Positions 15,392 through 39,507 of a stretch of DNA of 64,000 nucleotides are shown here, one piece after another (within the stretch, counting starts at the first letter, position 1; the number at the start of each line of letters is the position of its first letter). The notes beneath the pieces are model-generated. The model was not told the origin of the DNA. It made no database searches and worked only from the letters and a program-made list of their open reading frames with translations. The DNA is from Serratia ficaria (GTDB taxonomy: Bacteria > Pseudomonadota > Gammaproteobacteria > Enterobacterales > Enterobacteriaceae): the NCBI RefSeq assembly GCF_900187015.1, contig NZ_LT906479.1, positions 3,348,001-3,412,000 on the forward strand, given 5' to 3'. The translations under genes were made by a program, and so were the position numbers.

Positions 15392-15467
15392 TCCTCTGTA
15401 GTTCAGTCGGTAGAACGGCGGACTGTTAATCCGTATGTCACTGGTTCGAGTCCAGTCAGAGGAGCCA
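15392..15467 (+). tRNA. tRNA-Asn (GTT)
   Basis: A 76-nt cloverleaf folds completely. The acceptor stem is TCCTCTG with CAGAGGA, the D arm is GTTC-AGTCGGTA-GAAC, the anticodon stem-loop is GCGGA-CTGTTAA-TCCGT with anticodon GTT at 15425-15427, and the T arm is ACTGG-TTCGAGT-CCAGT. The discriminator G and encoded CCA are at 15464-15467. Its 3' 16 nt form the start of the 33-bp island repeat, so the gene remains intact after integration. Confidence 0.97.
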
Positions 15468-15484
15468 TATTAAAGAAGCCCGCT
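15452..15484 (+). repeat. left 33-bp direct repeat (att site) of genomic island
   Basis: From the T arm of tRNA-Asn through the first 8 nt of its terminator stem, the 33 bases recur exactly at 29378-29410. A repeat of a tRNA 3' end bracketing a distinct block is the usual mark of tyrosine-integrase insertion. Confidence 0.9.
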
Positions 15485-15507
15485 CAGGGAAACCTGAGCG
15501 GGCTTTT
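15477..15507 (+). terminator. terminator of tRNA-Asn (left copy)
   Basis: A 12-bp stem AGCCCGCTCAGG/CCTGAGCGGGCT has a GAAA tetraloop and is followed by a T-run. The second copy at 29403-29434 keeps the stem and loop but has a different, compensated lower-loop sequence. Confidence 0.92.
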
Positions 15508-15852
15508 GGCTTTTTTGACCGGCGGTTATGAGCGAAAAGCGGAAGTTGGCAACTGTTCTAACCACTGATAATGGCATCACTAAAATCGCGGTGTGTTAAT
15601 CAGCGGTGAGCAAGGCAGTCCGCTTGGAAAACCGAAACTATCCTACGCTAAGACTAACCTACGGCTTTATGACGAAATTTTTCTTACATTAGATAGGAAG
15701 GTATGCTGTTTTATAATCTGATAATTCGTGCCCTTGTCTGCAAACACAAATCGAGCCTGAAACGGAAACGATACCTCGATTTCTCCCTATAAGGCCTAAG
15801 ATAAGAGCCTGTTTAAACCACTCTTTCACTGCCTTCGCAATTCACAATATTA
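15508..15852. other. gene-free left end of the island
   Basis: About 345 bp lie between the tRNA-Asn terminator and the palindrome before the efflux gene. No gene, RNA or integrase fragment could be recognised here on either strand. Confidence 0.6.
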
Positions 15853-15867
15853 ATGAATGTCATTCAT
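15853..15867. promoter_or_regulatory. palindrome upstream of Bcr/CflA efflux gene
   Basis: ATGAATGTCATTCAT is a perfect 15-bp palindrome about a central base, 82 bp upstream of the efflux start codon. A 14/15 identical copy lies just after the gene at 17175-17189. This pattern suggests an operator, TetR-like in length and symmetry, but no regulator gene is adjacent. Confidence 0.55.
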
Positions 15868-15949
15868 AGTCCCTATCCTCCCACCTGTGGTTATCAGCAT
15901 GCACAAACCCGTTAACATGCCCTTATATCTTCATGTCCAACGGATCACC

Positions 15950-17170
15950 ATGCTTAATCAACAGGCACGTACACAGTCAACTACAGCTAAAAAAACCGGT
16001 CTATCATTTCTGCTCATTCTCAGTGCCCTGATGGCTGTTACCTCTTTATCAACCGATATCTACCTTCCGGCTATGCCCGTGATGGCAAAAGATTTACAGG
16101 GTGATGCAGAGCTGACAATTACAGGCTTCCTTATCGGTTTTTGCATTGCGCAACTGATTTGGGGACCGGTTAGCGATCGATACGGGCGTCGTCTGCCGCT
16201 TTTTATCGGTTTAGTTCTGTTTATCATCGGTTCGGTGGGTTGTGCGTTATCAACTGACATTGTTCAAATCGTCTTCTGGCGTGTTTTTCAGGCGTTAGGT
16301 GCCTGTACCGGCCCGATGCTGGCGCGAGCAATGATCCGCGACCTGTTTAGCCGCACTCGTGCAGCACAAATGCTTTCGACCCTGATGATCATCATGGCCA
16401 TCGCGCCGATTGCCGGGCCCCTAATCGGCGGCCAAATGATTAAAGCCACTTCGTGGCACGCCATTTTCTGGCTGCTGGCGATTATCGGAACATTAATGCT
16501 GATGTCTTTATTCTGGTTACCGGAAACATTACCTGCTGAAAAACGCTCGCAATCCTCCGTAACCAGAGCCTTTCAGAACTACTGTGCCTTGCTGACCAAC
16601 GCCAGTTACATGCGGTTTACTCTGTGCCTGACGTTCTATTACGTTGCGGCCTACGCCTTTATCACGGGCTCTCCGTTTGTGTACATCACGTACTTCGGCG
16701 TTGATCCACAGCACTACGGTTGGCTGTTTGCAGTAAACATCGTGGGATTAATGGCAGTGAGCATGATTAACAGACGCCTGGTTCATCGCTATCCACTGGA
16801 AGCGTTGCTCAGGAATGCGGTATTCATCGCCGCTATTGCGGCAATAGCGTTGGCGGGCGCAACAGACCTGGGCATTGGTGGAATTACCGTGATTGTCGGC
16901 GCTGTGTTCGTATTCTTCTCCATGAATGGCATCATCGCTGCAACCTCCACGGCTTGCGCGCTTGACGCAGTGCCTAATGTTGCAGGCTCCGCATCGGCGC
17001 TAATGGGGGCATTACAATACGGCAGCGGCATCATCTCTTCACTTCTTCTTGCTCTGTTCAGTGACGGCACACCATGGACGATGGGCTGGATAATTGCGTT
17101 GTTTACAGCAGCCAGCGCCTTGATGGCATTGACTGTTCAGGTAAAAAACAACCATCCCCTGTCAGAATGA
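15950..17170 (+). CDS. Bcr/CflA family multidrug efflux MFS transporter
   Basis: This 406-residue, 12-segment inner-membrane proton antiporter is of the Bcr/CflA drug-resistance family. TDIYLPAMP in segment 1 and the motif-A loop GPVSDRYGRRLPLF are typical, as is RVFQALGACTGPMLARAMIRDLF in segment 4-5. An upstream extension to 15857 is open, but ATG at 15950 gives the family length and begins just before the first membrane segment. It is the first gene inside the tRNA-Asn island and is less GC-rich than the backbone. Two near-identical palindromes bracket it. The substrate is unknown; bicyclomycin-like drugs or sulfonamides are known for the family. Confidence 0.88.
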   Translation: MLNQQARTQSTTAKKTGLSFLLILSALMAVTSLSTDIYLPAMPVMAKDLQGDAELTITGFLIGFCIAQLIWGPVSDRYGRRLPLFIGLVLFIIGSVGCALSTDIVQIVFWRVFQALGACTGPMLARAMIRDLFSRTRAAQMLSTLMIIMAIAPIAGPLIGGQMIKATSWHAIFWLLAIIGTLMLMSLFWLPETLPAEKRSQSSVTRAFQNYCALLTNASYMRFTLCLTFYYVAAYAFITGSPFVYITYFGVDPQHYGWLFAVNIVGLMAVSMINRRLVHRYPLEALLRNAVFIAAIAAIALAGATDLGIGGITVIVGAVFVFFSMNGIIAATSTACALDAVPNVAGSASALMGALQYGSGIISSLLLALFSDGTPWTMGWIIALFTAASALMALTVQVKNNHPLSE

Positions 17171-17174
17171 TTTT

Positions 17175-17189
17175 ATGAATTTCATTCAT
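17175..17189. promoter_or_regulatory. second copy of the ATGAAT/ATTCAT palindrome
   Basis: ATGAATTTCATTCAT begins 5 bp after the efflux gene stop and differs from the copy at 15853 by one base. The two copies bracket the transporter gene. Confidence 0.5.
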
Positions 17190-17259
17190 GGTGGCTATTA
17201 ACAAGGCGTAATTATCTTTCATCCCGACTCCGTTAATCTGAACGATAAATTCTGAATAA

Positions 17260-17283
17260 GTCGATACCCGCCAGGGTATCGAC
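17260..17283 (-). terminator. hairpin after secreted hydrolase gene
   Basis: A perfect 10-bp inverted repeat, GTCGATACCC and GGGTATCGAC, has a 4-nt loop. It starts 10 bp past the hydrolase stop on the minus strand and lies in the convergent gap with the efflux gene. The T-run is weak (TTATT). Confidence 0.6.
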
Positions 17284-17292
17284 AGATGCGAA

Positions 17293-18342
17293 TTAAATAT
17301 TCTTATCGAAGAAGACGTCTAACTTTTGCATAGCCTGGTCAACGTATTTAGGCACCCAATACGTCTCGATATGGGTAGCACCATCGATCAGGTAGAGTTC
17401 TTTGTCCTTCGTACCGGTGGCTTTCGCGAACGCATCTTCAGTCATATAGAGCGTATCGGCTTTTGTACCGGCAATCATCAGCAGCGGTTTATTGATGAGA
17501 TTGATATGGTCCGTTACGTCAAAGCTCATCAAATCCAGCAGACTGCTGGTGGTGTATTTAAACGTGGAGTTCGGGTGCGCGTGGGTTTTCCAGTAGTACT
17601 CGTAGCCCTGGCGATACAAGGCAAAAGGTAATTTAGCAATCTGTTCATCAGTCAGGTTGGCATCGCCGGAGTAAAGCACTTCTCCTCCGGCGGCTTCCTG
17701 AGCACGTGCGTCAGAAGCCTGCAGAAGACGCTGCTGGATAGTATCCAGCTGTGAATCCTGCATACCGTTGCGGCGCACAAGACCTGAATTAAACATGCTG
17801 ATGGTTGCAATCGATTTGAACCGTTTGTCCGTCTCGGCAGCAACAAGTGAATACCCGCCGCCACCGCAAATGCCAAGCAGACCGAGGCGGGAAGTATCAA
17901 CCCCCGGATACTGGCTGATGTAGTCAGCCATGCCGTGGATATCTTCGATGCGATTAGCGGGTTTATCCACGCTGCGCGGCATCCCACCGCTAGCGCCCTG
18001 ATAAGCCGCATCGGCGGTAATTGTGATGTAGCCCTGCTCGGCGAGACGCTGGGCATACAAACCCGCGACCTGCTCTTTTACGCCGCCATTAGGATGCGCG
18101 ACCACCACGGCAGGATATTTTTTGGCGGGATCGTAGTTAGCAGGGGTATAGACATTCGCGGCAATCTGGATGCCATGCAGATCGTATTTCACCGGATGAA
18201 TGTTGACCTTGCCTTTGACGTTCTCCGTGATGGCACCGTCATAGGCCAGTGTGAATGGATTTTTTTTGTAATCAGCCGCATTGACTGAGGTCACTCCAGC
18301 CATTGCCGTGAGTAGCATTGCACTGATAAGCGTGAATTTCAT
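17293..18342 (-). CDS. exported alpha/beta hydrolase with Cys nucleophile elbow
   Basis: This 349-residue protein has a Sec signal peptide (MKFTLISAMLLTAMAGVTSVNA, then ADYKKN), so it is predicted periplasmic. The fold is dienelactone-hydrolase/acetyl-xylan-esterase-like: PAVVVAHPNGGVKEQ supplies the oxyanion region. The nucleophile elbow reads LGICGGGG, with Cys where most relatives have Ser. A likely acid is in GTKADTLYM and the His in DGATHIETYW. It is divergent from the exported aldo-keto reductase across a 250-bp gap rich in GTCAG/CTGAC boxes. The substrate is unknown. Confidence 0.85.
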   Translation of the reverse strand: MKFTLISAMLLTAMAGVTSVNAADYKKNPFTLAYDGAITENVKGKVNIHPVKYDLHGIQIAANVYTPANYDPAKKYPAVVVAHPNGGVKEQVAGLYAQRLAEQGYITITADAAYQGASGGMPRSVDKPANRIEDIHGMADYISQYPGVDTSRLGLLGICGGGGYSLVAAETDKRFKSIATISMFNSGLVRRNGMQDSQLDTIQQRLLQASDARAQEAAGGEVLYSGDANLTDEQIAKLPFALYRQGYEYYWKTHAHPNSTFKYTTSSLLDLMSFDVTDHINLINKPLLMIAGTKADTLYMTEDAFAKATGTKDKELYLIDGATHIETYWVPKYVDQAMQKLDVFFDKNI

Positions 18343-18420
18343 GGTCTCTCCCGATGAGTGTCAGCCTGTTTATGCAGGCTCGCGGAATTAAATTTGCAGG
18401 CTCAGATTAGGGGGAGAGGG

Positions 18421-18470
18421 CTGTCAGCATCGTGACAGGAAAATAACATTTTTGTCAGGAAACTGACTGG
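18421..18470. promoter_or_regulatory. cluster of degenerate TGTCAG/CTGACA boxes
   Basis: TGTCAG at 18422, TGACAG at 18433, TGTCAG at 18453 and CTGACT at 18463 lie between the divergent hydrolase and aldo-keto reductase genes. The two TGTCAG copies are 31 bp apart. They are on the hydrolase side of the well-formed operator at 18486 and are probably weaker sites of the same regulator. Confidence 0.45.
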
Positions 18471-18485
18471 GATGGGTAAGTGTTT

Positions 18486-18513
18486 CTGACAACGCTGTCA
18501 GGTAGCCGTCAGC
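18486..18513 (+). promoter_or_regulatory. three-box operator, copy 1 (upstream of exported AKR and two-component genes)
   Basis: The site is CTGACA, 4 bp, TGTCAGG, 4 bp, CGTCAGC. All 20 box bases recur at 21896-21923 while the spacers differ. A -10-like CAGAAT starts 22 bp after the element and there is no -35 hexamer, as expected for an activated promoter. The inner TGACA-N4-TGTCA dyad has the same layout as the CusR/HprR box. The neighbouring OmpR-family regulator is the obvious candidate ligand. Confidence 0.75.
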
Positions 18514-18592
18514 TTTATGTTGGCAATCAAGCGGCAGAATGTTCTCGCTTAAATGAGATTCATGTTCAATTTTCTGAGAAAAGGAGTAATCA

Positions 18593-19759
18593 ATGAAAAG
18601 CCAGAATGACCCAACAATACCAGAGCGACGCAAGCTATTAGTCGCCGGGGCGGGTATTGCCGCCGCCTCGCTGATTCCCCACGTATCGGCGGCGAGCCAG
18701 TCCTCTCAGGTCGATTCCTCCAGACAAACCAGCCATCGCCCTGCTGCTCCGGGCAAGCGTAAACTCGGGAAGCTGGAAGTCTCAGCCGTCGGCCTGGGCG
18801 TCCAGAACATGAGTCGCAAATATGACACCTCTGTTCCCTGGCGTCCCGAGATGATCAATGTTATCCAGCGGGCATTTGATGAAGGGGTGACATTTTTCGA
18901 CGCTGCTGAAGCCTACGGTCCCTTTGAAGTCGAAAAAATTCTCGGGGAAGGCGTCGCCCCGTTCAGGGACAAAATCATTATCGCCACTAAGTTTGGCTGG
19001 AACATTGACCAACAGACAGGTAAGCGTCTGCCGGGCCTTAACAGCAGACCGGAGCATATCAGACAGGTTGTCGAAAACATGCTCAAACGCCTGCGTACCG
19101 ATCGTATCGACTTACTGTATCAACACCGTGTTGATCCGCAGATCCCGATCGAAGATGTCGCCGGTGTGGTTAAAGATTTAATGGACCAAGGGAAAGTCCT
19201 GCACTGGGGTCTGTCTGAAATGGGCATCAACACGTTGAGACGCGCCCATGCAACATTACCCGTTACCGCCGTACAAAGTGAATACTCCATGCTCTGGCGC
19301 GGCCCTGAAAAGCAGGCCCTTTCGGTGTGTGAAGAGCTGGGCATCGGGTTTGTGCCATGGAGCCCACTCGGCGTGCAGTTTTTAACGGGCTGGATTGATG
19401 AGAATACCCGGTTCGCTACCGGTGATTTCCGCGCGACAGAAACGCGCTTCTCGCCTGAAAACCTGCCACACAACTTACAGCTGGTTGAACTGCTAACATC
19501 ATGGGCAATAAGAAAAAATGCCGCACCGGGTCAGATTGCACTGGCATGGCTACTGGCCCGTAAACCCTGGATAGTTCCCATCCCTGGCACTACCAATAAA
19601 GACCATATGCTGCAAAACACAGCGTCTACCGGCATATCGCTGACTGCCGCAGATATGACCGAGCTCACCCGCTCACTGGATGCCATCACTATCCAGGGTC
19701 AACGTCTGCCGGATGCCGTACAGGTTTATTCAGATGTTGAAGCTCCGTTGAAAAGTTAA
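18593..19759 (+). CDS. exported aldo/keto reductase with twin-arginine signal
   Basis: This 388-residue protein has residues 60-385 forming an AKR12/YajO-type aldo-keto reductase barrel. Catalytic Asp and Tyr lie in DAAEAYG, Lys in ATKFGW and His in YQHRVD. NADPH-binding IPGTTNKDHM is near the C terminus. The N-terminal 35 residues carry PERRKLLVAGAG, a hydrophobic stretch and VSA-AS, a good Tat signal, which is rare for an NADPH enzyme. SD AAGGAG precedes the ATG. It lies 80 bp after the three-box operator and 14 bp upstream of the response regulator, so the three genes form one operon. Confidence 0.87.
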   Translation: MKSQNDPTIPERRKLLVAGAGIAAASLIPHVSAASQSSQVDSSRQTSHRPAAPGKRKLGKLEVSAVGLGVQNMSRKYDTSVPWRPEMINVIQRAFDEGVTFFDAAEAYGPFEVEKILGEGVAPFRDKIIIATKFGWNIDQQTGKRLPGLNSRPEHIRQVVENMLKRLRTDRIDLLYQHRVDPQIPIEDVAGVVKDLMDQGKVLHWGLSEMGINTLRRAHATLPVTAVQSEYSMLWRGPEKQALSVCEELGIGFVPWSPLGVQFLTGWIDENTRFATGDFRATETRFSPENLPHNLQLVELLTSWAIRKNAAPGQIALAWLLARKPWIVPIPGTTNKDHMLQNTASTGISLTAADMTELTRSLDAITIQGQRLPDAVQVYSDVEAPLKS

Positions 19760-19773
19760 GAGGAAGTCCCGTT

Positions 19774-20454
19774 ATGCGCCTGTTGTTAGTCGAAGATGAA
19801 GAAAAAACGTCAACCTATCTCAGCCGTGCGCTGGGCGAGTCTGGATTTACGGTAGACGTCTCTGCAGATGGAGCTGAAGGTCTTCATTACGCGCTGGAGT
19901 TCGACTACGACGCGATAATCCTGGATGTGATGCTACCGGGGATGGATGGCTACCGGGTGCTTGAGGGTGTGCGAGCAGCCAAACAGACGCCGGTGCTGAT
20001 GCTCTCGGCACGGGGATCGGTCGACGAGCGCGTTAAAGGGCTGCGTCTTGGCGCGGATGATTATCTGCCCAAGCCCTTTTCGCTTATTGAGCTGGTGGCG
20101 CGTATTCAGGCACTGGTGCGTCGCCGCGCTACGGATGGCGCAGACATCACCCAACTGCAAATTCACGATCTGCATCTCGACTTACTGGCTCGCCGCGTAT
20201 TCCGCGCCGGAACGAGACTGGAGCTGACCGCAAAAGAGTTTTCCCTGTTGAGCCTTCTGGCCCGGCATCAGGGGGAGATCCTTTCAAAGATGATGATTGC
20301 TGAGCAGATATGGGACATGAATTTTGACAGCGATGCCAACGTGGTTGAAGTGGCCATTAAACGTCTGCGGGCCAAAGTGGATGCTCCGTTCGACACCAAA
20401 CTGCTGCATACCGTTCGTGGCATGGGGTATGTCCTCGAAGTCCGGTCCGAATAA
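19774..20454 (+). CDS. OmpR-family response regulator, CusR/HprR-like
   Basis: This 226-residue DNA-binding response regulator has a receiver domain at residues 1-120, with acidic EDEEK, phospho-acceptor Asp in AIILDVMLPGMDG, Ser in LMLSARGS and Lys in YLPKPFS. A winged-helix effector occupies residues 130-225 (LTAKEFSLLSLLARHQGEILS, VEVAIKRLRAKVD, LHTVRGMGYVLE). It sits in an operon between the exported AKR and the sensor kinase. Length and sequence pattern fit the heavy-metal/peroxide group (CusR, HprR, PcoR). The repeated TGACA-N4-TGTCA box in this locus is the expected target for that group. Confidence 0.92.
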   Translation: MRLLLVEDEEKTSTYLSRALGESGFTVDVSADGAEGLHYALEFDYDAIILDVMLPGMDGYRVLEGVRAAKQTPVLMLSARGSVDERVKGLRLGADDYLPKPFSLIELVARIQALVRRRATDGADITQLQIHDLHLDLLARRVFRAGTRLELTAKEFSLLSLLARHQGEILSKMMIAEQIWDMNFDSDANVVEVAIKRLRAKVDAPFDTKLLHTVRGMGYVLEVRSE

Positions 20455-20469
20455 ATGAAGGGGATAAGC

Positions 20470-21927
20470 ATGCTTAAGCGTTCCATCTCAATTCATCTGG
20501 CGCTGATGTTTGCCTTATCCGCACTGCTGATTGTGTCCGTTATCGGCATCCTGCTGAGAAGCTCCTTGCATGATTCTTTGCAAAAGCAGATGCACAACGA
20601 ACTGCTGTTCCGGGAATCATTAATGAGTCCGTGGATCACCGCACGAACCTCGGCTGACGACTGGTCTACGCTGGCCAATAAATTCACCGTGTTAACCAAT
20701 TCTGAAGGTGAGCGCGTTCGCTACTGGATTGTGAGCGATAACCCGCGCTTCAGCATGGGGGGAACACCACCGGTGGGTGTCCAGTGGTCTTCTTTGCAGG
20801 AAGGTTTTAATAAAGTGCCCGGTGCATCGGAAAGCGCATGCTCATTGTTCCTGTTAGTGAAAACCATTCCCGCGAACGGTGAACGGCCTGAGCTGCGCTA
20901 TGTGGTTGCCATCGACTCCACGCCTTACATGGGGACACTCGATGCGTTCACCCGTACACTGCTGATCATTACCGCACTGGGCGTCGTGATTGTAGCCTTA
21001 CTGGGATACATCGTCTCGAGGATCGGTCTTCGTCCCGTTGGGGCGCTCAGTAAACAGGCCCGGCAACTCGCTCCCGGGGCCCCTGGCCAGCTCCTGAATA
21101 CCGAAGCATTACCTGACGAATTACAGCAGTTAGCCTCATCTTTTAATGGCGTACTGGAACGGCAAGAGGTCGCCTGGCGACAGCTCGAAAGCTTTAATGC
21201 CGATGTTGCGCATGAACTCAGGACCCCGCTGACCAACCTGATTGGCCAGACGCAACTGGGTCTCTCGCGCCGACGTTCGCAAGATGAATTGGAAGAGTTA
21301 TTGGGTTCAAATCTTGAGGAGCTTGAACGCATGACGTCGATAGTTAACGACATGCTGTTCCTGTCTCATGCGCACGCGGGTGAACATGCTTCCCAGCTTA
21401 CGCAGGTGTCCCTGCGAGAAGAAACCCTAAAAACAGCGGAGTATGTGGAACCCTCTTTTTCTGAAAAACAGCTCTCTCTGGATGTTGAGGGCGATGTCAC
21501 CGCGCACATCGACCGGCGACTGTTCCACCGCTCACTGGCTAATTTACTGGAAAACAGCGCAAGACATTCGCCCTCCAATAGCACGGTTAGGGTGCGGTTA
21601 AGCGAAAAAAACAATCAAGCCTGTGTTGAAGTTTCTAACCCGGGCGATCCGATTGCACCTGAGCACTTACACCGGCTTTTCGAGCGCTTTTATCGCGTCG
21701 ACACCTCCCGAGCAAGAAGTGATACCCATCATGGGCTGGGCCTGTCGATCGTACGCGCCGTCGCCATCATGCACAGGGGGGACGTCTTTGCACGTAGTGA
21801 AGGTGGTATCAATACCTTTGGCCTCACTTTTGAGATACAAGCGGATAAAACGGCGGGCAATGCTCACCCTGCCACTAAGCCGGGACCAGGGTTAACTGAC
21901 AGAATTGTCAGGGGGGCGTCAGCCTGA
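20470..21927 (+). CDS. heavy-metal-sensor-type histidine kinase
   Basis: This inner-membrane kinase of about 485 residues is paired with the preceding regulator. There are two membrane segments (residues 10-30 and about 160-180) with a periplasmic sensor between them, then HAMP. The H-box is DVAHELRTPLTNLIGQTQLG, the N-box LLENSARHSP, and the G-box DTHHGLGLSIVRAVAIMHRG. ATG at 20470 is chosen because AAGGGGAT precedes it; an earlier ATG directly after the regulator stop has no site. No His/Met-rich metal motif is evident in the sensor, so the signal may not be a metal. The 3' end of the gene contains the second three-box operator. Confidence 0.9.
   Translation: MLKRSISIHLALMFALSALLIVSVIGILLRSSLHDSLQKQMHNELLFRESLMSPWITARTSADDWSTLANKFTVLTNSEGERVRYWIVSDNPRFSMGGTPPVGVQWSSLQEGFNKVPGASESACSLFLLVKTIPANGERPELRYVVAIDSTPYMGTLDAFTRTLLIITALGVVIVALLGYIVSRIGLRPVGALSKQARQLAPGAPGQLLNTEALPDELQQLASSFNGVLERQEVAWRQLESFNADVAHELRTPLTNLIGQTQLGLSRRRSQDELEELLGSNLEELERMTSIVNDMLFLSHAHAGEHASQLTQVSLREETLKTAEYVEPSFSEKQLSLDVEGDVTAHIDRRLFHRSLANLLENSARHSPSNSTVRVRLSEKNNQACVEVSNPGDPIAPEHLHRLFERFYRVDTSRARSDTHHGLGLSIVRAVAIMHRGDVFARSEGGINTFGLTFEIQADKTAGNAHPATKPGPGLTDRIVRGASA
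21896..21923 (+). promoter_or_regulatory. three-box operator, copy 2 (upstream of cupin-CMD-flavodoxin genes)
   Basis: CTGACA, 4 bp, TGTCAGG, 4 bp, CGTCAGC is identical in all boxes to the copy at 18486. A -10-like TAAAAT starts exactly 22 bp downstream, the same distance as in copy 1, and the cupin ATG follows 70 bp after the element. The site lies inside the last codons of the sensor kinase gene. Confidence 0.75.
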
Positions 21928-21992
21928 CGACATGACTCCCTCGTTAAAATCATTGCAGGCAATCCCCCTCTTCATTGATAAGGACGCTTTGC

Positions 21993-22472
21993 ATGATCGG
22001 ACACTTACGTTACCTCGGGCTGTTACTGTCCCTCTTTACGTTTTCATCCTGGGCAGCGGAGCAAAATTCCGCTGTCCATATCGCACCGGCCGGAAGTCAG
22101 AATGCGGTGTATGGGCCAGCGGAGAATTTTACCGGTCGCGTCCGGGTTGATCCTCTCTTCAAACCTGATAAAGACATCGGCGTTTCCGGGGCTTATGTCG
22201 CCTTTGATCCCGGCGCTCGCTCCGCCTGGCATACGCATCCGGCAGGTCAGCGGCTTATTGTGACCTCTGGTGTCGGGCTCACCCAACAAGAAGGCCAGCC
22301 GGTGCAGGTCATCCGCGCTGGCGACGTTGTTTCTTGCCCGGCGGGGGTCAAACACTGGCACGGAGCGGCACCTGGCAGCGCGATGACGCACCTGGCGATA
22401 ACCGGGATTGTAGATGGCAAAAGCGTTAACTGGATGGAGAAAGTGACAGATGAACAATACCACGCCCATTAA
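21993..22472 (+). CDS. exported cupin-domain protein
   Basis: This 159-residue single-cupin protein has a Sec signal peptide (MIGHLRYLGLLLSLFTFSSWA, then AEQNSAV). The metal-binding pattern is clear: WHTHPAGQRLIVTSG with two His and a Gln/Glu position, then CPAGVKHWHGA. Relatives are often annotated together with carboxymuconolactone decarboxylases. ATG at 21993 follows AAGGA at good spacing. It starts 70 bp after the three-box operator and overlaps the next gene by 23 bp. Periplasmic location is inferred from the signal. The reaction is unknown; quercetin-dioxygenase-like or simple metal-binding roles are possible. Confidence 0.85.
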   Translation: MIGHLRYLGLLLSLFTFSSWAAEQNSAVHIAPAGSQNAVYGPAENFTGRVRVDPLFKPDKDIGVSGAYVAFDPGARSAWHTHPAGQRLIVTSGVGLTQQEGQPVQVIRAGDVVSCPAGVKHWHGAAPGSAMTHLAITGIVDGKSVNWMEKVTDEQYHAH

Positions 22473-23211
22473 AGCATTAACGGCAGCGGTACTGCTGACC
22501 TTTGGTTTTGGTCTCGCGGCGAATGCTGCGCCCGTCAATAAGGGAACCTCAGAAATGAACCACGAACAAAGGGTTTCAGATACGCTGTCAGCCAGCCAGC
22601 AGGCCATCCCCTTGATTGCGGCATCGATGGCCAGCAGTCAGATGGATAAGCTGAATGCAGCCCTGAATCAGGGACTTGATGCAGGACTCACCATAAATGA
22701 AACCAAAGAGATTCTTATCCAGCTCTATGCCTACACGGGCTTCCCTCGTAGCCTGAATGCACTTAGCGAACTGATGAAGGTCGTCGAAGCGCGTAAACAA
22801 CGTGGCATCGAAGACGTTGAGGGCAAAGAACCGGTCGCCACCATCCCCGTCGGGGATGAGCTTCGCCGCGTCGGTACCGCAAATCAGACTAAAATCTCAG
22901 GCGCTCCCGTCCAGGGCCCTCTGTTTGATTTTGCACCTGTCATTAATCAATTTCTGCAAACGCATCTGTTCGGCGACATTTTCGCCCGCGATAACCTCGA
23001 CTGGCAAAGCCGCGAGCTGGCAACGGTTGGTGCATTAGCGGCCACACCAGGCGTTGAAGCCCAGCTGTTATCGCATACGCGAGCCAGCATGCGGGTCGGC
23101 CTGACGGCAGCCCAGCTGCGCCAGCTGGCACAGGTTCTGCGTGAACATGGCGAAAATGATGCAGCTGTGCGGGCAGAAAAGGCACTGCAACAGGCGCTCG
23201 CACACAATTAG
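22450..23211 (+). CDS. exported carboxymuconolactone-decarboxylase-like protein
   Basis: This 253-residue protein has a Sec signal (residues 1-27, hydrophobic AAVLLTFGFGLAANA). Two CMD/AhpD-like helical repeats follow: LTINETKEILIQLYAYTGFPRSLNAL near residues 75-105, and RELATVGALAATPGVEAQLLSHTRASMRVGLT near residues 185-220. Neither repeat has the CxxC of AhpD, so a peroxidase-like thiol role is unlikely and the protein resembles the PcaC or YurZ branch. It overlaps the cupin gene by 23 bp and is 9 bp before the flavodoxin gene, so these three form one translational unit. Confidence 0.85.
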   Translation: MNNTTPIKALTAAVLLTFGFGLAANAAPVNKGTSEMNHEQRVSDTLSASQQAIPLIAASMASSQMDKLNAALNQGLDAGLTINETKEILIQLYAYTGFPRSLNALSELMKVVEARKQRGIEDVEGKEPVATIPVGDELRRVGTANQTKISGAPVQGPLFDFAPVINQFLQTHLFGDIFARDNLDWQSRELATVGALAATPGVEAQLLSHTRASMRVGLTAAQLRQLAQVLREHGENDAAVRAEKALQQALAHN

Positions 23212-23220
23212 GAGTTGATT

Positions 23221-23805
23221 ATGGAGCATGATCCCACCCGCAGAATGTTGATTACCGCGCTTGCCGGGCTCACGCTGGCGAACGTCTCCCTGGCGACAGC
23301 TGCCACCGGAAACGCAAACGTGCAGGGAAAAAGCCGTATTCTGGTGGCGTACTTTTCCCGCAGCGGAAATACTCGGGTTATTGCGGGCGTCATTCACCGC
23401 AGCCTGAATACCGATCTGTTTGAAATCGAACCGGCAACGCCTTATCCGGAAGACTATTTTCAGACCGTTGAACAGGCCAAAAATGAGCGTGAGCGGGGCG
23501 TAAAACCGGCATTAAAAAATAGCGTCACAGATATCCCACGCTATGAGACCGTGTATTTAGGCTTTCCGATCTGGGGGACCAGCGTGCCGCCTGTAGTGCA
23601 AACCTTTCTCAGCAGCCATAACCTTGCGGGCAAATTACTCATCCCCTTCATTACTCACGGCGGCTACGGTAAAGGAGACAGCGACGACATCCTTGCCAGT
23701 CTCGCCCCAACTGCGCGCCGGGAAAAACCGCTGGTCCTTGAATGCGACCAGGAACGAAGAACTACAGAAACGGTAACCAGTTGGTTAGAGACGATACGTA
23801 GTTAA
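23221..23805 (+). CDS. exported flavodoxin with twin-arginine signal
   Basis: This protein of about 194 residues begins MEHDPTRRMLITALAG, followed by hydrophobic residues and ATA-AT, a Tat-type signal. The mature part is a flavodoxin: ILVAYFSRSGNTRVIAG forms the FMN phosphate loop, VYLGFPIWGTSVPPVVQTFLSS is the isoalloxazine-side loop, and FITHGGYGKGD follows. Tat export fits a protein that must bind FMN before translocation. ATG at 23221 follows AGGAG. It belongs to the cupin-CMD-flavodoxin operon. A periplasmic electron carrier or FMN-dependent quinone reductase are the likely roles. Confidence 0.88.
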   Translation: MEHDPTRRMLITALAGLTLANVSLATAATGNANVQGKSRILVAYFSRSGNTRVIAGVIHRSLNTDLFEIEPATPYPEDYFQTVEQAKNERERGVKPALKNSVTDIPRYETVYLGFPIWGTSVPPVVQTFLSSHNLAGKLLIPFITHGGYGKGDSDDILASLAPTARREKPLVLECDQERRTTETVTSWLETIRS

Positions 23806-23912
23806 TCGTCCGCATCCATGAGTCTGCCAAATAAGGACAATCAGGGGTGCTAAATAATTAACGCTGACAACTCAGATATGATTGAACGGCAAACATAACA
23901 GAGGATGTAATC

Positions 23913-24977
23913 TTGAAGACAATCTTAAAAACCCTGGCCATCTGCGTAATGGCGGGTGGCCTGGTAGCTCAGTCGGTATACGCCGAGCCGCTGGTCATTC
24001 AGGAACAAGGAAGCTTTTCTGCTGGTGGCACTATCATCATCGCACCAGGAACATTTGACGCGAAAAAGCCGCTGGATTCTGCTGGCCAAACCTATCATGG
24101 CGATCATGCCTCAGTGTTCTACCAGATTCCGGAGAATCCGCATAAATACCCTATCGTCATGCTGCACGGCGCAGGTCAGTTCTCCCGTACCTGGGAAAGC
24201 ACCCCGGATGGTCGTGAAGGGTTCCAGAACATATTCCTGCGTCGTGGATTCTCAACCTATCTTGTCGATCAGCCACGCCGAGGCAGCGCCGGGCGCACGA
24301 CTGTAGAAGGTATTGTTTCGCCTAAACCGGATGAACAGATGTGGTTCAACCAGTTCCGCGTTGGCGTGTGGCCAGAGTATTTTAAGGGCGTTCAGTTCTC
24401 TCACGACAAAGAAGCACTGAATCAGTATTTCCGTCAGATGACCCCGAATACCGGGCCGTTTGATATCAACGTCATCTCTGATGCAATGTCCGCCGTAGTG
24501 GACAAATCCGGCCCTGCTATCCTCTTCACCCACTCTCAGGGTGGCGGACCAGGCTGGTATACGGCGATGAAAAACGACAAGGTCAAAGCCATTGTCGCCT
24601 TCGAGCCTGGCAGCAGCTTTGTCTTCCCGGAAAAAGAACTCCCTGCCCCTATGCCAAGCGCGTTCGACACGCTGAAGGGTGAGCCGGTGCCGATGGAGCA
24701 GTTTATGGCTCTGACCAAAATCCCGATTCTGATTATTTACGGCGATAACATACCAGATAAGCCTGTCGCCATGCCCGCGCAGGACAGCTGGCGCGTACGT
24801 CTGGCGATGGCTCGCGAGTGGCGTGACGTGGTGAACAAGCATGGCGGGGATGTGACGGTGACGCATCTGCCTGAAGTGGGAATTAAAGGGAATACCCACT
24901 TCCCGTTCTCTGATTTAAATAATGTGCAGATTGCTGATTTGGTGAGTCAGTTCCTGAAGGAAAAAGATCTGCAGTAG
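23913..24977 (+). CDS. exported alpha/beta hydrolase (esterase-like), TTG start
   Basis: This 354-residue protein has a Sec signal peptide (ILKTLAICVMAGGLVAQSVYA, then EPLVIQ). The hydrolase fold shows YPIVMLHGAGQFSRTW (oxyanion His-Gly), nucleophile elbow FTHSQGGGPGW with Ser, and a likely catalytic His in GNTHFPFSD. The only start consistent with the signal peptide is TTG at 23913, preceded by AGAGGA at normal spacing. A 107-bp gap after the flavodoxin gene may hold its own promoter. The substrate is unknown. Confidence 0.87.
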   Translation: MKTILKTLAICVMAGGLVAQSVYAEPLVIQEQGSFSAGGTIIIAPGTFDAKKPLDSAGQTYHGDHASVFYQIPENPHKYPIVMLHGAGQFSRTWESTPDGREGFQNIFLRRGFSTYLVDQPRRGSAGRTTVEGIVSPKPDEQMWFNQFRVGVWPEYFKGVQFSHDKEALNQYFRQMTPNTGPFDINVISDAMSAVVDKSGPAILFTHSQGGGPGWYTAMKNDKVKAIVAFEPGSSFVFPEKELPAPMPSAFDTLKGEPVPMEQFMALTKIPILIIYGDNIPDKPVAMPAQDSWRVRLAMAREWRDVVNKHGGDVTVTHLPEVGIKGNTHFPFSDLNNVQIADLVSQFLKEKDLQ

Positions 24978-24991
24978 GATGAATTAATCGC

Positions 24992-25013
24992 GAGCCTTCA
25001 TTATTGAAGGCTC
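24992..25013 (+). terminator. hairpin after the exported-hydrolase gene
   Basis: A perfect 9-bp stem (GAGCCTTCA with TGAAGGCTC) has a TTAT loop, 15 bp past the stop. No T-run follows, so it may act as a transcript end stabiliser and not a classic terminator. Confidence 0.5.
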
Positions 25014-25160
25014 AACACATACATAAGCCTTATAAATAATACAGTGGCTTAATCCTGACGGAAAAGTGACGGTCCGCCTTGCCACACAGCAGACCGTCAG
25101 CCCAACAATTAATGAGTGAATTTAATAAACCCTAGCTAATTACCCCATCTAATCGAATAA

Positions 25161-28042
<2,882 letters not shown>

Positions 28043-28141
28043 TGTTCATAGACACAATCATTTTAGCCCCATTACTGACAATAATGATAATTGATATTCT
28101 GGCCGTATCGGGAATAAGTCTGAATTATCATAAGGTTTATC

Positions 28142-28927
28142 ATGAAAATACTCGTTGCAGGGGCAACAGGAAGTATTGGTCTTCATGTCGTGAACACCGC
28201 TATTGAAATGGGCCATTACCCCGTGGCGCTGGTCAGAAATCGGCGCAAAGTAAAATTGCTTCCTCGTGGAACAGATGTTTTCTACGGCGATGTTTCAATG
28301 CCTGAAACACTCACCGATTTGCCGAAAGATATTGATGCCATGATCTTCACTCTCGGTTCCGATGGACAGGGTCGTATTGGTGCCAGAGCGATAGATTACG
28401 GTGGTGTGCGTAACATTTTGCGAACGTTCAAGGATACGCCTGTTCGCATCGGCTTAATGACCACGATTGGCGTAACTGAACGGCTCAGCACCTGGAATCA
28501 ACGCACTGAGGTTCATGACTGGAAAAGACGTGCCGAACGTCTGGTCAGGGCGAGTGGTCACCCCTATACCATCGTCAGGCCCGGCTGGTTTGATTACAAC
28601 AATGATGATGAGCACAGAATCGTTATGCTCCAGGGGAATCGACGCCATGCAGGAACGCCAGAAGATGGTGTTATATCCAGAAAACAAATCGCTCAAGTGC
28701 TGGTCAGTGCGTTGAGTAACGGTGCAGCAACAAATAAAACGTTCGAGCTGGTGGCTATACCAGGAGAAGCGCAGCAGGATCTTACTCCGCTGTTTGCTGG
28801 CCTGCAGACTGATAATCCTGAAAAAAATGATGGAGTTCTAGATATAGAAAATATGCCTCTGCATGAAGAACCTGAGTGCATTATTAACGAGCTGAACCTG
28901 TTTTCAAAACAAGTAAAATCAATCTAA
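28142..28927 (+). CDS. NAD(P)-binding protein (NmrA/atypical SDR)
   Basis: This 261-residue atypical SDR has the Rossmann motif VAGATGSIGLHVV at residues 5-17, then VRNRRKVKLLPRG for the cofactor phosphate, and IVRPGWFDYN in the active-site region. No YxxxK catalytic pair is evident, as usual for NmrA/HSCARG-like members, which can be redox sensors or quinone reductases. It is divergent from the LysR gene, which may control it. Confidence 0.85.
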   Translation: MKILVAGATGSIGLHVVNTAIEMGHYPVALVRNRRKVKLLPRGTDVFYGDVSMPETLTDLPKDIDAMIFTLGSDGQGRIGARAIDYGGVRNILRTFKDTPVRIGLMTTIGVTERLSTWNQRTEVHDWKRRAERLVRASGHPYTIVRPGWFDYNNDDEHRIVMLQGNRRHAGTPEDGVISRKQIAQVLVSALSNGAATNKTFELVAIPGEAQQDLTPLFAGLQTDNPEKNDGVLDIENMPLHEEPECIINELNLFSKQVKSI

Positions 28928-28961
28928 CACCTTTGACAATTTGGTCAAAGAGAAGTCGGTC

Positions 28962-29117
28962 TTATGACAGTTTGGATCCGGCCTTTACTCGAAGTATGGT
29001 TTGCCGGGTAGTGCTAAATTCTCGGGCAATAGAGCTGATGCTTAAGCCTAAATTAATACGCTCAATAACGACCTGTTTTGTTCTTCGTTCAGTGAACCAG
29101 ATTAATGAGCACAACTG
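28962..29117 (-). pseudogene. remnant of a recombinase/transposase-type HTH
   Basis: On the minus strand an open frame of about 50 codons without a start ends at the stop 28962-28964. It encodes [20 protein letters not shown] followed by [13 protein letters not shown]. This looks like the C-terminal helix-turn-helix of a serine recombinase or an IS transposase. Nothing else of such a gene is present. It lies near the right end of the island and could be the last trace of its mobility genes. Confidence 0.5.
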
Positions 29118-29377
29118 AAATTAGACATGCCCGCTTCTGGCTCTCAGCCGACAGTTAAACCTCTTTGCACACAGTTTCACATAGGATAAACACCTTCGAC
29201 GTTACCTCTAATTACGTTTCATTTTCAGAGAGTAAAATAGTAATGTTCACTCATGCTGCGGAACGCTCATACCAGAATTTATGGAACCCGCAACTATTGG
29301 TGGTCATTCTGGTGGTCCTGACAGGAAGGGAATTCAGGTTTGGATTACTTATTAGCCAGTTACTGGCAAAGGCGATC
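29118..29377. other. gene-free right end of the island
   Basis: About 260 bp hold no recognisable gene. TGGTGGTC occurs at 29298-29305 and 29310-29317, a 12-bp-spaced direct repeat about 60 bp inside the right att copy. Such repeats resemble integrase arm-type sites. No intact integrase reading frame was found. Confidence 0.5.
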
Positions 29378-29410
29378 CCAGTCAGAGGAGCCATATTAAA
29401 GAAGCCCGCT
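29378..29410 (+). repeat. right 33-bp direct repeat (att site) of genomic island
   Basis: This is an exact copy of 15452-15484: the last 16 nt of tRNA-Asn including CCA, the spacer and the first half of its terminator stem. It has no tRNA body upstream, as expected for the displaced 3' end after integration. Confidence 0.9.
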
Positions 29411-29434
29411 TAAGGAAACTTAAGCGGGCTTTTT
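29403..29434 (+). terminator. terminator at the right end of the island
   Basis: A 12-bp stem AGCCCGCTTAAG/CTTAAGCGGGCT has a GAAA loop and is followed by TTTT. It is the partner of the tRNA-Asn terminator at 15477, with paired base changes that keep the stem intact. Confidence 0.85.
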
Positions 29435-29474
29435 GCTGAAGAACCTTTCTGCTCCATCCCCTGCGGTTAATCTC

Positions 29475-30365
29475 TCAACCCGGCCCCTCGCTCCCAGCCG
29501 CCAGCAGCGGTACCAGCACCTCGCTGACGGGGGTGGGGATACCCAGTAACCGACCATAACGCCGTATCACGCCATTGCGGATATCCCACTCCAGCGGGCG
29601 GTTGGCCTGGCGGTCGGCAAGTATTGAAGTGCCTAAATCCGCAGGGGCACGATGAAAACCGTCAACGATCTCCTGCGGAACGTTATCGCTCAGCTGCGCC
29701 CCACTGGCACGCGCTACGCTCAAACACTCGCGCAGGTAAGCCAAAGCCAGTTCAGTGATATCTCCCCGCGAGAACATGCCGGCGCGGCGATTGGCCAGCA
29801 CCATCAGACCGGCGACCGCGTTCTGCAGCAGCTTGCGCCATGCGATGGAGATAAAATCGGCTGCCAGCTCAACCGCGCAGCCCGTGCCGCTGAACACCTC
29901 CGCTATCCGTTTTGCCTGCGGCGTATCGGGCAGCGTAAGGCGCGGTGCGGCGCGCAGCCAGACGGATGCATCCGGCTCGCGCTGCGCCGGGAACCACACT
30001 ACCGCAGGCAGCACCTTTGCGCCGTTGACGTAGGGCTCCAGCAGGGTTTCCTGCTCTACGCCATTTTGCAACGCACATACCAGGGTGTTTTCATCGCACA
30101 GCGCGGCCAACCAGTTGGCGCTGTCGGCAATTTGGGTGGTTTTCACCGCGACGAACACCAGATCGAACGGGTGGCCGACCGTCGCCGGATCGCTCAATAC
30201 CGGGCCCGGCACTACGATTTCCCGCTTATCGCGACGCAAAATCAGCTGCGCATGCGCGGTTCGCCCGCACAGGACCGGCGTTCGCTCAACTTCATGCAGC
30301 GCCGCGGCGATGGTGGTGCCGATAGCGCCCGGACCAATAAGAGCCAGCGTGGGATGCTCAGACAT
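29475..30365 (-). CDS. ketopantoate reductase family protein (PanE/ApbA-like)
   Basis: This 296-residue NADPH-dependent 2-dehydropantoate 2-reductase family member has GPGAIGTTIAAAL at the N terminus, VFVAVKTTQ and LQNGVEQE in the cofactor domain, and catalytic Lys in AWRKLLQNAVAG. The C-terminal helical domain ends with a conserved Glu in LEWDIRNGVIRRYG. ATG at 30365 follows AGGAG. It lies 20 bp after the EamA transporter gene, in an operon with it. A housekeeping panE elsewhere is likely, so this copy may reduce another 2-keto acid. Confidence 0.87.
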   Translation of the reverse strand: MSEHPTLALIGPGAIGTTIAAALHEVERTPVLCGRTAHAQLILRRDKREIVVPGPVLSDPATVGHPFDLVFVAVKTTQIADSANWLAALCDENTLVCALQNGVEQETLLEPYVNGAKVLPAVVWFPAQREPDASVWLRAAPRLTLPDTPQAKRIAEVFSGTGCAVELAADFISIAWRKLLQNAVAGLMVLANRRAGMFSRGDITELALAYLRECLSVARASGAQLSDNVPQEIVDGFHRAPADLGTSILADRQANRPLEWDIRNGVIRRYGRLLGIPTPVSEVLVPLLAAGSEGPG

Positions 30366-30385
30366 CGGGTGTTCTCCTGATTCGA

Positions 30386-31213
30386 TTAGCCCATCATCAG
30401 CGTGCCGGCGGCAATCACCGCGCACGCCAGCATTTTTCTCGGCGTTAACCTTTCGCCGAGAAACAGATAACCCAGCGCGGCGGCGAACAGCACGCTGGTT
30501 TCGCGCAGCGCCGAGACGGCGCCCATTGGCGCGGCCGTCATGGCATAAATGATGCTGCCGTAAGCGACCAGCGAAACCAGACCGCCAACCGCCGCATGGA
30601 GCACGCCGGGCCGCCGGCGCAGTAAACTTTTACTGTCGCGCAGCGCGATATAAAGCGCCGTCATCAGCCCGCCCCATAATGCGCCCATCCACAGGGTATA
30701 AGAGAGCGCATTGCCGGAAACCCGCACCCCGATACCGTCCACCACGCTATACGCGGCGATAAAAACGCCCGTTGCCAGGGCGTATTGCAGGCCCGGCGTC
30801 GCCAGCCGCCCCCCTTTCACGGCCAGCAGCAAAATACCCGCGGACACCAGCGTGATGCCGCCAAGGGTGCTGAATTCAATTTTTTCTCCGGCGAATATTG
30901 CCGCCGCGCAGGTCACCATCAGCGGCGAAGAACCGCGCGCAATCGGGTAGCTTTGCCCTAGCTCCCCCCACTGATAACTGCGTACCAGACACAGGTTATA
31001 GCCGACATGCAGCAGGGCCGAAAGCAGCGCGTACGGCCAGCTGGCGCGGGCGGGCAGCGGCAGAAACAGCGCGGCGGCGGCGCAGGCAAGCGCGATCGTC
31101 AGACACATCATGGTCATCGACCACAATCGGTCAGCGCCGCCGCGCAATAAGGTGTTCCAGCCGGCATGCAGCAGGGCGGCGAATAAGGTAAGCAAAACAA
31201 TGTGTCCAGGCAT
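30386..31213 (-). CDS. EamA/DMT family transporter
   Basis: This 275-residue inner-membrane carrier has about ten hydrophobic segments in two EamA repeats (residues 1-130 and 140-275), with the typical GERLTPRKMLACAVIAAGTLMM end. Members export amino acids or metabolites. It is co-transcribed with the PanE-like gene. A candidate operator for the upstream LysR protein lies 57-72 bp before the start. Confidence 0.88.
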   Translation of the reverse strand: MPGHIVLLTLFAALLHAGWNTLLRGGADRLWSMTMMCLTIALACAAAALFLPLPARASWPYALLSALLHVGYNLCLVRSYQWGELGQSYPIARGSSPLMVTCAAAIFAGEKIEFSTLGGITLVSAGILLLAVKGGRLATPGLQYALATGVFIAAYSVVDGIGVRVSGNALSYTLWMGALWGGLMTALYIALRDSKSLLRRRPGVLHAAVGGLVSLVAYGSIIYAMTAAPMGAVSALRETSVLFAAALGYLFLGERLTPRKMLACAVIAAGTLMMG

Positions 31214-34024: not shown

Positions 34025-34032
34025 GGTCAGCA

Positions 34033-35460: not shown

Positions 35461-35470
35461 GGACCTGCTG

Positions 35471-35788
35471 ATGAAACGAATCGTTCTGGCCTGCTCGGCG
35501 GGCATGTCCACCTCGCTGGTGGTCACCAAAATGGAAAAAGAAGCGACAGCGCGCGGGCTGGCGTTGCAGATCTACGCCATCCCTGAACAGAATCTGCGCG
35601 ATGAGCTGCAAAGTTACGGCAACGACATCATCGCGGTGCTGCTGGGGCCGCAGGTGCGCTTCAAGCTGACGGAAAACAAAAAGCTCACCGACGAACACCG
35701 GATCCCCATCGCGGTGATTGATTCTGTGGCTTATGGCACGTTAAACGGCGCAAAAGTACTCGATCAGGCGTTGGATTTGGTAGACTAG
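35471..35788 (+). CDS. PTS IIB component, lactose/cellobiose type
   Basis: This 105-residue phospho-carrier domain protein starts MKRIVLACSAGMSTSLVVTK. Cys8 in the P-loop CSAGMSTS is the phosphorylated residue, and VLLGPQVRFKLTE is the typical central strand. It follows the GH1 gene by 10 bp. Its phospho-donor should be a IIA of the lac family, which this operon lacks; the IIA at 37786 is the nearest candidate. Confidence 0.92.
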   Translation: MKRIVLACSAGMSTSLVVTKMEKEATARGLALQIYAIPEQNLRDELQSYGNDIIAVLLGPQVRFKLTENKKLTDEHRIPIAVIDSVAYGTLNGAKVLDQALDLVD

Positions 35789-35877
35789 CGCCGCTGTCGT
35801 CCCAACGGACTTTTCAGGGCTAAAAGCCTCTTGCAGGCAAGGTATGGCATCGGCCAGGCGTATTTCAGAGTGAAACG

Positions 35878-36651: not shown

Positions 36652-36740
36652 TAAGCCAGAGCAGCGAACGGATATCCGCCGGCCTATCGCCAATGCCAAA
36701 AATATAAAGCCTGACACCAAATCGGGTCATTAACCGCAGG

Positions 36741-36772
36741 CCCGCTTTTTCGTCGTTAGCGTAAAAAGCGGG
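36741..36772. terminator. bidirectional terminator between GntR and LacI genes
   Basis: CCCGCTTTTT and AAAAAGCGGG pair over 10 bp around a 12-nt loop. The A/T-rich side of the stem provides U-runs for both convergent genes. Confidence 0.7.
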
Positions 36773-36805
36773 TCGATTTATAGACCATGTTCGCGAAACG
36801 GCAAG

Positions 36806-37726: not shown

Positions 37727-37785
37727 AACTGCGGGTCTTCCTGCTGATGTTGAAAAACGGGCCGCCGGCCCGTTAACGATTATCC

Positions 37786-39494: not shown

Positions 39495-39507
39495 TATTGC
39501 TCCTTGT

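Follow-up and report, generated by a model that had tools for sequence, protein, structure and literature searches.

The 64,000-nucleotide stretch of Serratia ficaria DNA analyzed here (the window) contains a block of eight genes at 17293-24977 that, on balance, we read as a horizontally spread detoxification or repair module acting first in the periplasm. Six of the genes carry predicted export signals, and the other two encode a regulator/kinase pair of the CusRS/HprRS family. The predicted routes are twin-arginine translocation (Tat) for an aldo-keto reductase (tatAKR) and a flavodoxin, and Sec for two hydrolases (abH1 and abH2), a Mn-type cupin, and a CMD-like protein. All eight open reading frames (ORFs) named in the original prediction, an earlier annotation of this DNA, were found at their coordinates, and their family labels were confirmed by Pfam and NCBIfam profile searches. 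The block has the look of a module for stress or detoxification, not for metal handling; our guess is that its substrates are reactive carbonyls, quinones, esters, or lactones.

We applied a simple export rule (an uncharged hydrophobic stretch, an A-x-A-like site, and at most one transmembrane segment) to a list of 53 window genes of our own choosing. The rule flags eight of them as exported soluble proteins, six of which are exactly the six non-regulator module genes; the remaining two lie at 50352 and 58813. The chance of this six-gene coincidence, calculated post hoc as C(8,6)/C(53,6), is ~1e-6. Twin-arginine signals are retained in 27/28 tatAKR relatives, the exception (L009) being truncated by a contig edge, and in 40/41 flavodoxin relatives. 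A hydrophobic core above threshold is found in 57/58 relatives of abH2, 57/76 of abH1, 68/89 of CMD, and 41/65 of the cupin, the misses being in part due to weak cores, to misplaced starts, and to CMD fusions in which the signal stands ahead of the cupin part. The cytosolic controls were mostly clean: the rule flagged none of 40 regulators, none of 89 LysR proteins, and 1/37 and 0/38 members of two cytosolic aldo-keto reductase (AKR) families, the second of which gave one match among its 38 members in a laxer twin-arginine test. The rule flagged an NAD(P)-binding SDR in 14/17 cases, a false positive. The predictions support export signals on all six enzymes and Tat use by both cofactor proteins. 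Glucose-fructose oxidoreductase shows that Tat can export an enzyme with its nucleotide already bound and not released, although its fold and chemistry differ from those of tatAKR.

The module is the core of a transferable island of ~13.9 kb in a tRNA-Asn gene. GC content is 0.43-0.58 across the island in 500-base windows, 0.67-0.68 in the left flank, and 0.57-0.64 in the 3 kb right flank; it is 0.64 near 29500 and then ranges from 0.43 to 0.64 further right up to 54 kb. In two of four congener stretches (L127 and L128), the tRNA-Asn flank joins DNA corresponding to window 29472-30401 directly and the 13.9 kb are absent, while L131 has ~1 kb of different DNA at the site and L132 has no tRNA-Asn. 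The island edges (15468-15856 and 28928-29474) contain no ATG-started ORF of more than 56 codons, and Pfam searches found no integrase among the island genes. The original prediction described the gene block correctly and missed its mobile nature; its extent was also too small, omitting an MFS pump, two cytosolic AKRs, a LysR regulator, and the SDR.

Klebsiella and E. coli plasmids, as well as E. coli chromosomes, share this gene order at ~92% DNA identity; Pantoea plasmids share it at 84-90%. Forty-three plasmid records match 17200-28100, and 12 of these hold at least 80% of it in one place; identity at the best place is 90-95% in 15 records, 80-90% in 23, and lower in 5. Some carrier plasmids are typed as conjugative. 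With signals kept in relatives and gene order conserved elsewhere, as had been anticipated, the proteins do not appear cytosolic nor the genes scattered, the two outcomes named beforehand as counting against the module. Some part of the same query is matched by 2180 of 5426 E. coli genomes, three of which cover at least 80% of it. In E. coli LF82 (L002, 1538874-1560024), a decayed version lies between hipA and fimbrial genes, and in it, as annotated, abH1 is frameshifted, the kinase is gone, and the LysR gene has an internal stop; E. coli KH_005 contains a 92% version in an LF82-like neighborhood (hipA/fimbrial) with two integrases. Within a genus sample, a close CMD was found in 2/29 other genomes (93% and 75%). 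One module variant lies on a plasmid of a strain whose name bears NDM5 and OXA48.

From the 184 relatives that a one-per-species genome scan yielded, we retained the best 80 loci. We compared 84 loci over 12 kb, including the window and the annotated records L002-L007. The 38 loci with the two-component system (TCS) contain abH1 and the cupin in every case and abH2 in 31; among the 46 loci lacking the regulator, abH1 is present in 33, the cupin in 21 with fused cupins not counted, abH2 in 23, and LysR in 29. In an unrooted CMD tree of 81 rows, from which L002-L007 and matches below 60% were left out, all 34 TCS rows and 11 others fall on one side of a single branch (SH-aLRT 99). These 45 rows are Enterobacterales except for one Aeromonas and one record titled Chryseobacterium. 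The latter (L031; Bacteroidota) has an Enterobacterales-like module with 81-93% protein identity (74% for the MFS part), which could be either contamination or transfer.

The enzymes themselves retain their catalytic positions. abH1 lies above the Pfam DLH cut-off (39.4 vs 21), with a slightly higher Peptidase_S15 score (41.7 vs 23), and the dienelactone-hydrolase-type Cys is found in 76/76 relatives; its nearest solved chains are 5xb6 (YcjY) and 2hdw (PA2218). abH2, with S/E/H residues in 58/58 relatives, resembles the SulE/esterase 713 family in sequence and in these residues. Its solved relatives include the 8gol/7y0l group, which we take to be the sulfonylurea-herbicide esterase SulE, and 1qlw, but the closest is the uncharacterized 4q34. 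The cupin scores 174.8 bits against the NF049940 cut-off of 140 and 158 bits to 4bif, presumably the Granulicella cupin hydroxynitrile lyase, and six His/Gln positions that we assume to be metal ligands are kept in 65/65 relatives. Unlike the bacterial cupin hydroxynitrile lyases, the module cupin is predicted to be exported and is coupled or fused to CMD, and cyanohydrin cleavage by it is putative. We know of no natural role for Mn-cupin "hydroxynitrile lyases."

CMD falls short of PcaC, the 4-carboxymuconolactone decarboxylase (46.2 vs the TIGR02425 cut-off of 155.7). We rejected its assignment as an AhpD-type peroxidase because the window CMD has no Cys at all, making a C-x-x-C motif impossible. 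E189 is conserved in 88/89 and H209 in 89/89 relatives. In the window, the cupin and CMD genes share 23 nt, and 19 ORFs were matched by both queries. Sixteen of these, from Pseudomonas and Burkholderiales, join the cupin to CMD in one protein; the other three are an ORF with the reverse CMD-cupin order beside a normal module (L040:11893-12966) and two short deletion scars (L026 and L027). A review on HOCl describes a CMD gene, not shown to be the module CMD, that is HOCl-induced in B. cenocepacia biofilms (PMC7464077).

These enzymes could instead serve periplasmic catabolism, in which the exported hydrolases, cupin, and CMD would support growth by degrading a plant-derived glycoside, ester, or lactone, with the substrate sensed by the TCS. 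The combination of a DLH-type hydrolase and CMD is reminiscent of the lactone branch of aromatic catabolism, the module is followed by a set of cytosolic reductases, and the records of some carriers give a plant origin (Rubus and olive knot for Pantoea, Alhagi for Klebsiella). We nevertheless consider this unlikely: no uptake transporter or central-pathway genes recur (only three further, unlabeled families are found in at least six of the compared loci), the transporter that is present is of an efflux type, and the TCS belongs to a stress family. A role as plasmid cargo that inactivates an antibiotic or signal containing an ester or lactone bond is, in our judgment, quite improbable. The conjugative-typed plasmids, the efflux-type pump, and the proximity of abH2 to the 8gol/7y0l group are consistent with such a role, as is a weak match of abH1 to the UilS acyl-homoserine lactone (AHL) lactonase family; however, at 80.1 bits abH1 is far under the curated NF047920 cut-off of 400, and such a role leaves the cupin, CMD, flavodoxin, and AKRs without explanation.

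The regulatory proteins proved to be, as predicted, a single CusRS/HprRS-like pair. The regulator (300.4 bits vs the TIGR01387 cut-off of 279.2) and the kinase (403.7 vs 292.55 for TIGR01386) lie inside the CusR/CusS heavy-metal subfamily. They are under the cut-offs for CusR and CusS proper (277.7 vs 420 for NF007346; 248.1 vs 423 for NF007345), and the regulator misses the HprR equivalog NF008567 (269.6 vs 353); the TTACA-n4-TGTAA box was not found in the promoter region. Alignment with MG1655 CusS indicates that the kinase lacks the His/Met-rich periplasmic metal loop. Its Cys129, located between two predicted transmembrane segments, is invariant in 39/39 kinases, as are Met46, His47, Met57, and Met159, which by itself is weak evidence because the kinases are 77-91% alike among the 21 aligned. 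We infer that Cys129 is a candidate thiol sensor.

The module promoter contains a putative operator, TGACA-n4-TGTCA, with the same arms and spacing as the site in the E. coli cusR-cusC spacer (TGACAATTTTGTCA); the hprR-hiuH spacer contains TTACAAAATTGTAA. We found 37 spacers between abH1 and the next gene and aligned 35, omitting two for length. TGACA-n4-TG[T/A]CA is present in 30/35, in its exact form in 27, with misses in L005, L008, L028, L030, and L032. A second putative operator precedes the cupin or FLD1, a second flavodoxin found in some modules, in 31/39 loci, usually 31 nt short of the kinase stop, and the cupin has its own copy in all six loci where FLD1 and a DUF4405 gene stand directly before it. 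Exact operators number 73 in 38 TCS loci, vs 4 in 47 non-TCS loci and 3 in shuffled TCS loci; at least one occurs in 37/38 TCS loci, a count that leaves out the window and LF82. The 5.2-Mb genome contains five sites, two in the module, two inside ORFs, and one ~50-70 bp 5' of the closest paralogous regulator (57% identity), while the reversed pattern, used as a control, gave none in the whole genome. These palindromes at both block promoters are likely targets of the module regulator. Four CMD loci contain an exact operator with no regulator nearby (L023:9447, L033:9753, L036:9907, and L049:7405); in the first three it lies 94-554 nt ahead of the CMD start and in L049 ~1.8 kb past that start. 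Control in trans or remnants are possible explanations.

The paralogous host TCS (L139:1656-9651; G000:C1 ~1613155-1621150) adjoins a cytochrome b561 and MsrP-like molybdopterin oxidoreductase gene pair, and a second cytochrome b561 and molybdopterin oxidoreductase pair lies beyond another TCS nearby. E. coli hprRS likewise stands beside hiuH-msrPQ, and MsrP of E. coli is periplasmic and Tat-exported. This regulator family therefore already serves periplasmic redox systems. HprRS-hiuH-msrPQ resembles the module in its regulator family and in having a hydrolase and a membrane-cytochrome-linked redox enzyme next to the TCS, but the enzymes and the sensor domain differ, the module has no MsrP or MsrQ, and its operator is the CusR palindrome. 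CusRS-cusCFBA shares the regulator family and the TGACA-n4-TGTCA operator, whereas the module has enzymes in place of metal efflux and of the His/Met sensor loop.

That unrelated exported genes with no shared task came together on a mobile island by chance would be in keeping with the optional presence of tatAKR, flavodoxin, DUF4405, nitroreductase, and FGE genes; we think it very improbable given the cupin-CMD fusions, the shared operators, the constant presence of abH1 and the cupin in TCS loci, and the occurrence of the core genes together in other bacterial orders under another regulator. That the enzymes merely look metabolic and the module confers copper or silver tolerance is scarcely credible, as neither the heavy-metal subfamily scores nor the cusR-cusC-like operator is accompanied by the CusS loop, by scores at the CusR and Cu/Ag-kinase equivalog cut-offs, or by any metal efflux or metal-binding protein among the island genes in Pfam searches.

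The two predicted Tat substrates had been proposed to form one working pair of an NADPH enzyme and a flavodoxin, a claim that the locus comparison does not support. Across 39 TCS loci, both genes are present in 21, the reductase only in 2, the flavodoxin only in 10, and neither in 6. Their co-occurrence gives a Fisher p of 0.045 in these loci and 0.0008 in all 84, the loci being related, and tree-corrected pairs show no link, the 5 usable pairs being too few to exclude one. We thus rejected an obligate pair, as the genes are gained and lost separately. tatAKR matches PF00248 at 207.2 bits and has the catalytic tetrad D/Y/K/H in 28/28 relatives. In the C-terminal motif after IPGTT, N or Q replaces K in 27/28 and H replaces R in 28/28, while the cytosolic paralogue has K in 36/38 and R in 33/38 at the matching positions, which we take from the AKR literature to hold the NADPH 2'-phosphate. 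Loss of NADPH binding was weakened as an interpretation on recount, the position after the changed lysine being K or R in 19/28.

The window flavodoxin scores 95.8 against the PF12682 cut-off of 24 and matches 3klb, and the FMN-loop columns S/T, S/T, and N are retained in 41/41 relatives. Its loop is SRSGNT, and the ApbE-flavinylated motif [S/T]GA[S/T] is absent. Nine variant modules (L006:10745-12064, L007:13492-14805, L014, L020, L022, L025-L027, and L029) insert the Sec-type flavodoxin FLD1 and a DUF4405 cytochrome. FLD1 has DGFSGAS in an insertion near the N terminus in 8/9 copies, the ninth (L020) being split; it passes the export rule in 1/9 with first-chosen starts, and a Sec-type signal from a GTG start is kept in the 8 unsplit copies. 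DUF4405 is found in 9/9 FLD1 loci, in 2 further loci without FLD1, and in 9/38 TCS loci. The SGAS sequence matches the flavinylation motif of apbE-linked Flavodoxin_4 proteins, a form described as occurring predominantly in Firmicutes (PMC11334425; earlier preprint form PMC10979944). The variant modules resemble these ApbE/DUF4405 systems in pairing a Sec-type SGAS flavodoxin with a DUF4405 protein, but they are from Enterobacterales rather than Firmicutes, and the window flavodoxin is predicted to be Tat-exported with a non-covalent-type FMN loop (PMC11334425). The putative export routes, Tat for a folded, flavin-loaded flavodoxin and Sec for the ApbE-motif form, fit two ways of keeping flavin outside.

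In the mechanism that we propose, the kinase would respond to a periplasmic oxidant or reactive small molecule, perhaps through Cys129, and the regulator would switch on (i) abH1, (ii) tatAKR and the TCS genes, and (iii) cupin-CMD-flavodoxin-abH2. abH1 and abH2 would open lactone or ester bonds, and the coupled Mn-cupin and CMD would act one after the other on a cyanohydrin-, lactone-, or beta-keto-like intermediate. tatAKR and flavodoxin may take up their cofactors in the cytosol, pass through Tat, and then carry out redox steps; in some relatives, the ApbE-motif flavodoxin and the DUF4405 cytochrome could draw electrons from the membrane. Whatever escapes inward would be handled by the cytosolic AKRs, the SDR, and the efflux pump.

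We favor a periplasm-first detoxification or repair module because the signals are kept in relatives with mostly clean controls and the catalytic positions are conserved; because the gene order is kept on plasmids and chromosomes, with an empty site and operators at both promoters; because the companions are aldehyde/quinone-type reductases and an efflux-type pump; and because the host paralogue TCS with the third operator adjoins a cytochrome b561 and molybdopterin oxidoreductase pair. Several observations weigh on the other side. The action of all six enzymes on one molecule is conjectural, and a periplasmic AKR requires a cofactor route, which is putative here. tatAKR (21/38) and flavodoxin (29/38) are both optional in TCS loci. 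No membrane electron donor was found in the window, where the island genes include no membrane b-type cytochrome of an MsrPQ-like quinol-fed system (Pfam), and no DUF4405 scored above cut-off in the whole genome. The module is rare, occurring in 3/295 genomes of an order sample, including this one (E <= 1e-90). Finally, Pseudomonas and Burkholderiales have the core without the TCS, often with LysR, and the sensor is therefore not intrinsic to the chemistry.

A more elaborate scheme, which we offer tentatively and regard as unlikely in its entirety, is an extracytoplasmic processing line, carried as plasmid and tRNA-island cargo and governed by a thiol-sensing CusS relative. It would combine the Cys-hydrolase, the esterase, the cupin-CMD unit (fused in relatives), an AKR whose locked-in nucleotide is regenerated in place, and flavodoxins that carry electrons in the periplasm, DUF4405/quinol-fed in some variants. 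The AKR would perhaps be NAD-type or dismutating, since the usual 2'-phosphate positions are changed.

The features of the island are collected in Table 1. We take the MFS protein to be a Bcr/CflA-type drug efflux transporter. Two PTS EIIC genes, a LacI regulator, and a family-1 glycosidase adjoin the island (window 32702-40833). A SIR2 and ATP-binding pair lies between abH2 and the cytosolic AKRs in E. coli (L003:22912-25802), and in Klebsiella plasmids (H5-H8) the matching region includes an annotated SMEK-domain gene; these may mark an insertion spot for defense-like genes. Some modules contain an FGE-sulfatase-like protein with a signal-like N terminus (L007:16765-17652, L042, and L054).

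Table 1. Features of the island and module, in window coordinates
Feature	Coordinates	Strand	Basis and remarks
Left attachment repeat, tRNA-Asn 3' end (gene 15392-15467)	15452..15467	+	ARAGORN; 16-base exact repeat at 29378
Genomic island, ~13.9 kb	15468..29393	.	GC steps; empty site in congeners L127, L128
MFS transporter, accessory	15857..17170	+	PF07690; in 23/38 TCS loci; relatives annotated "multidrug effflux MFS transporter"
abH1, putative Sec-exported dienelactone-hydrolase-type alpha/beta hydrolase, Cys nucleophile	17293..18342	-	PF01738/PF02129
Operator 1 (putative), TGACAACGCTGTCA	18487..18500	.	Divergent abH1/tatAKR promoter region
tatAKR, putative Tat-exported aldo-keto reductase	18593..19759	+	PF00248
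Response regulator, CusR/HprR family	19774..20454	+	TIGR01387
Sensor histidine kinase, CusS/HprS family	20455..21927	+	TIGR01386
Operator 2 (putative), TGACAGAATTGTCA	21897..21910	.	Kinase gene 3' end, ~79 nt 5' of cupin start
Cupin, putative Sec-exported, Mn-type, (R)-mandelonitrile lyase family	21975..22472	+	NF049940, 4bif
CMD-family protein, putative Sec-exported, no Cys	22450..23211	+	PF02627
Flavodoxin_4, putative Tat-exported, FMN loop S-R-S-G-N-T	23215..23805	+	PF12682, 3klb
abH2, putative Sec-exported esterase-713-like alpha/beta hydrolase	23913..24977	+	PF12697
Cytosolic DkgA-like aldo-keto reductase, accessory	25167..26060	+	PF00248; signal flagged in 1/37 family members
Cytosolic aldo-keto reductase, tatAKR paralogue	26086..27075	+	PF00248; 174/327 aligned residues identical to tatAKR
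LysR regulator	27100..28032	-	Homologues beside core in 29/46 non-TCS loci
NmrA-like NAD(P)-binding protein (SDR)	28142..28927	+	PF13460
Right attachment repeat, copy of tRNA-Asn 3' end	29378..29393	+	Similarity runs to ~29438 through tRNA terminator

A literature search limited to open-licence PMC papers found no published description of the module, in line with the earlier statement that no described system of such composition was known. The onion-virulence regions of Pantoea (PMC5817063) contain different genes, and a FosA13 study (PMC11933065) and a Yersinia plasma study (PMC2631605) concern unrelated contexts.

The same set of genes is carried by many gut, plant, and soil bacteria, on plasmids and chromosomes, and is present on conjugative Enterobacterales plasmids. 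Mn-cupin "hydroxynitrile lyases" would gain from it a conserved genetic partner, CMD, and a predicted compartment. Nucleotide- and flavin-dependent redox enzymes are thought to be rare outside the cytoplasm, where their cofactors are not easily renewed. With conserved Tat signals on both its AKR and its flavodoxin, its own sensor, and putative operators, this module would be a compact, testable system for a trait repeatedly acquired by bacteria and for electron supply in the periplasm.

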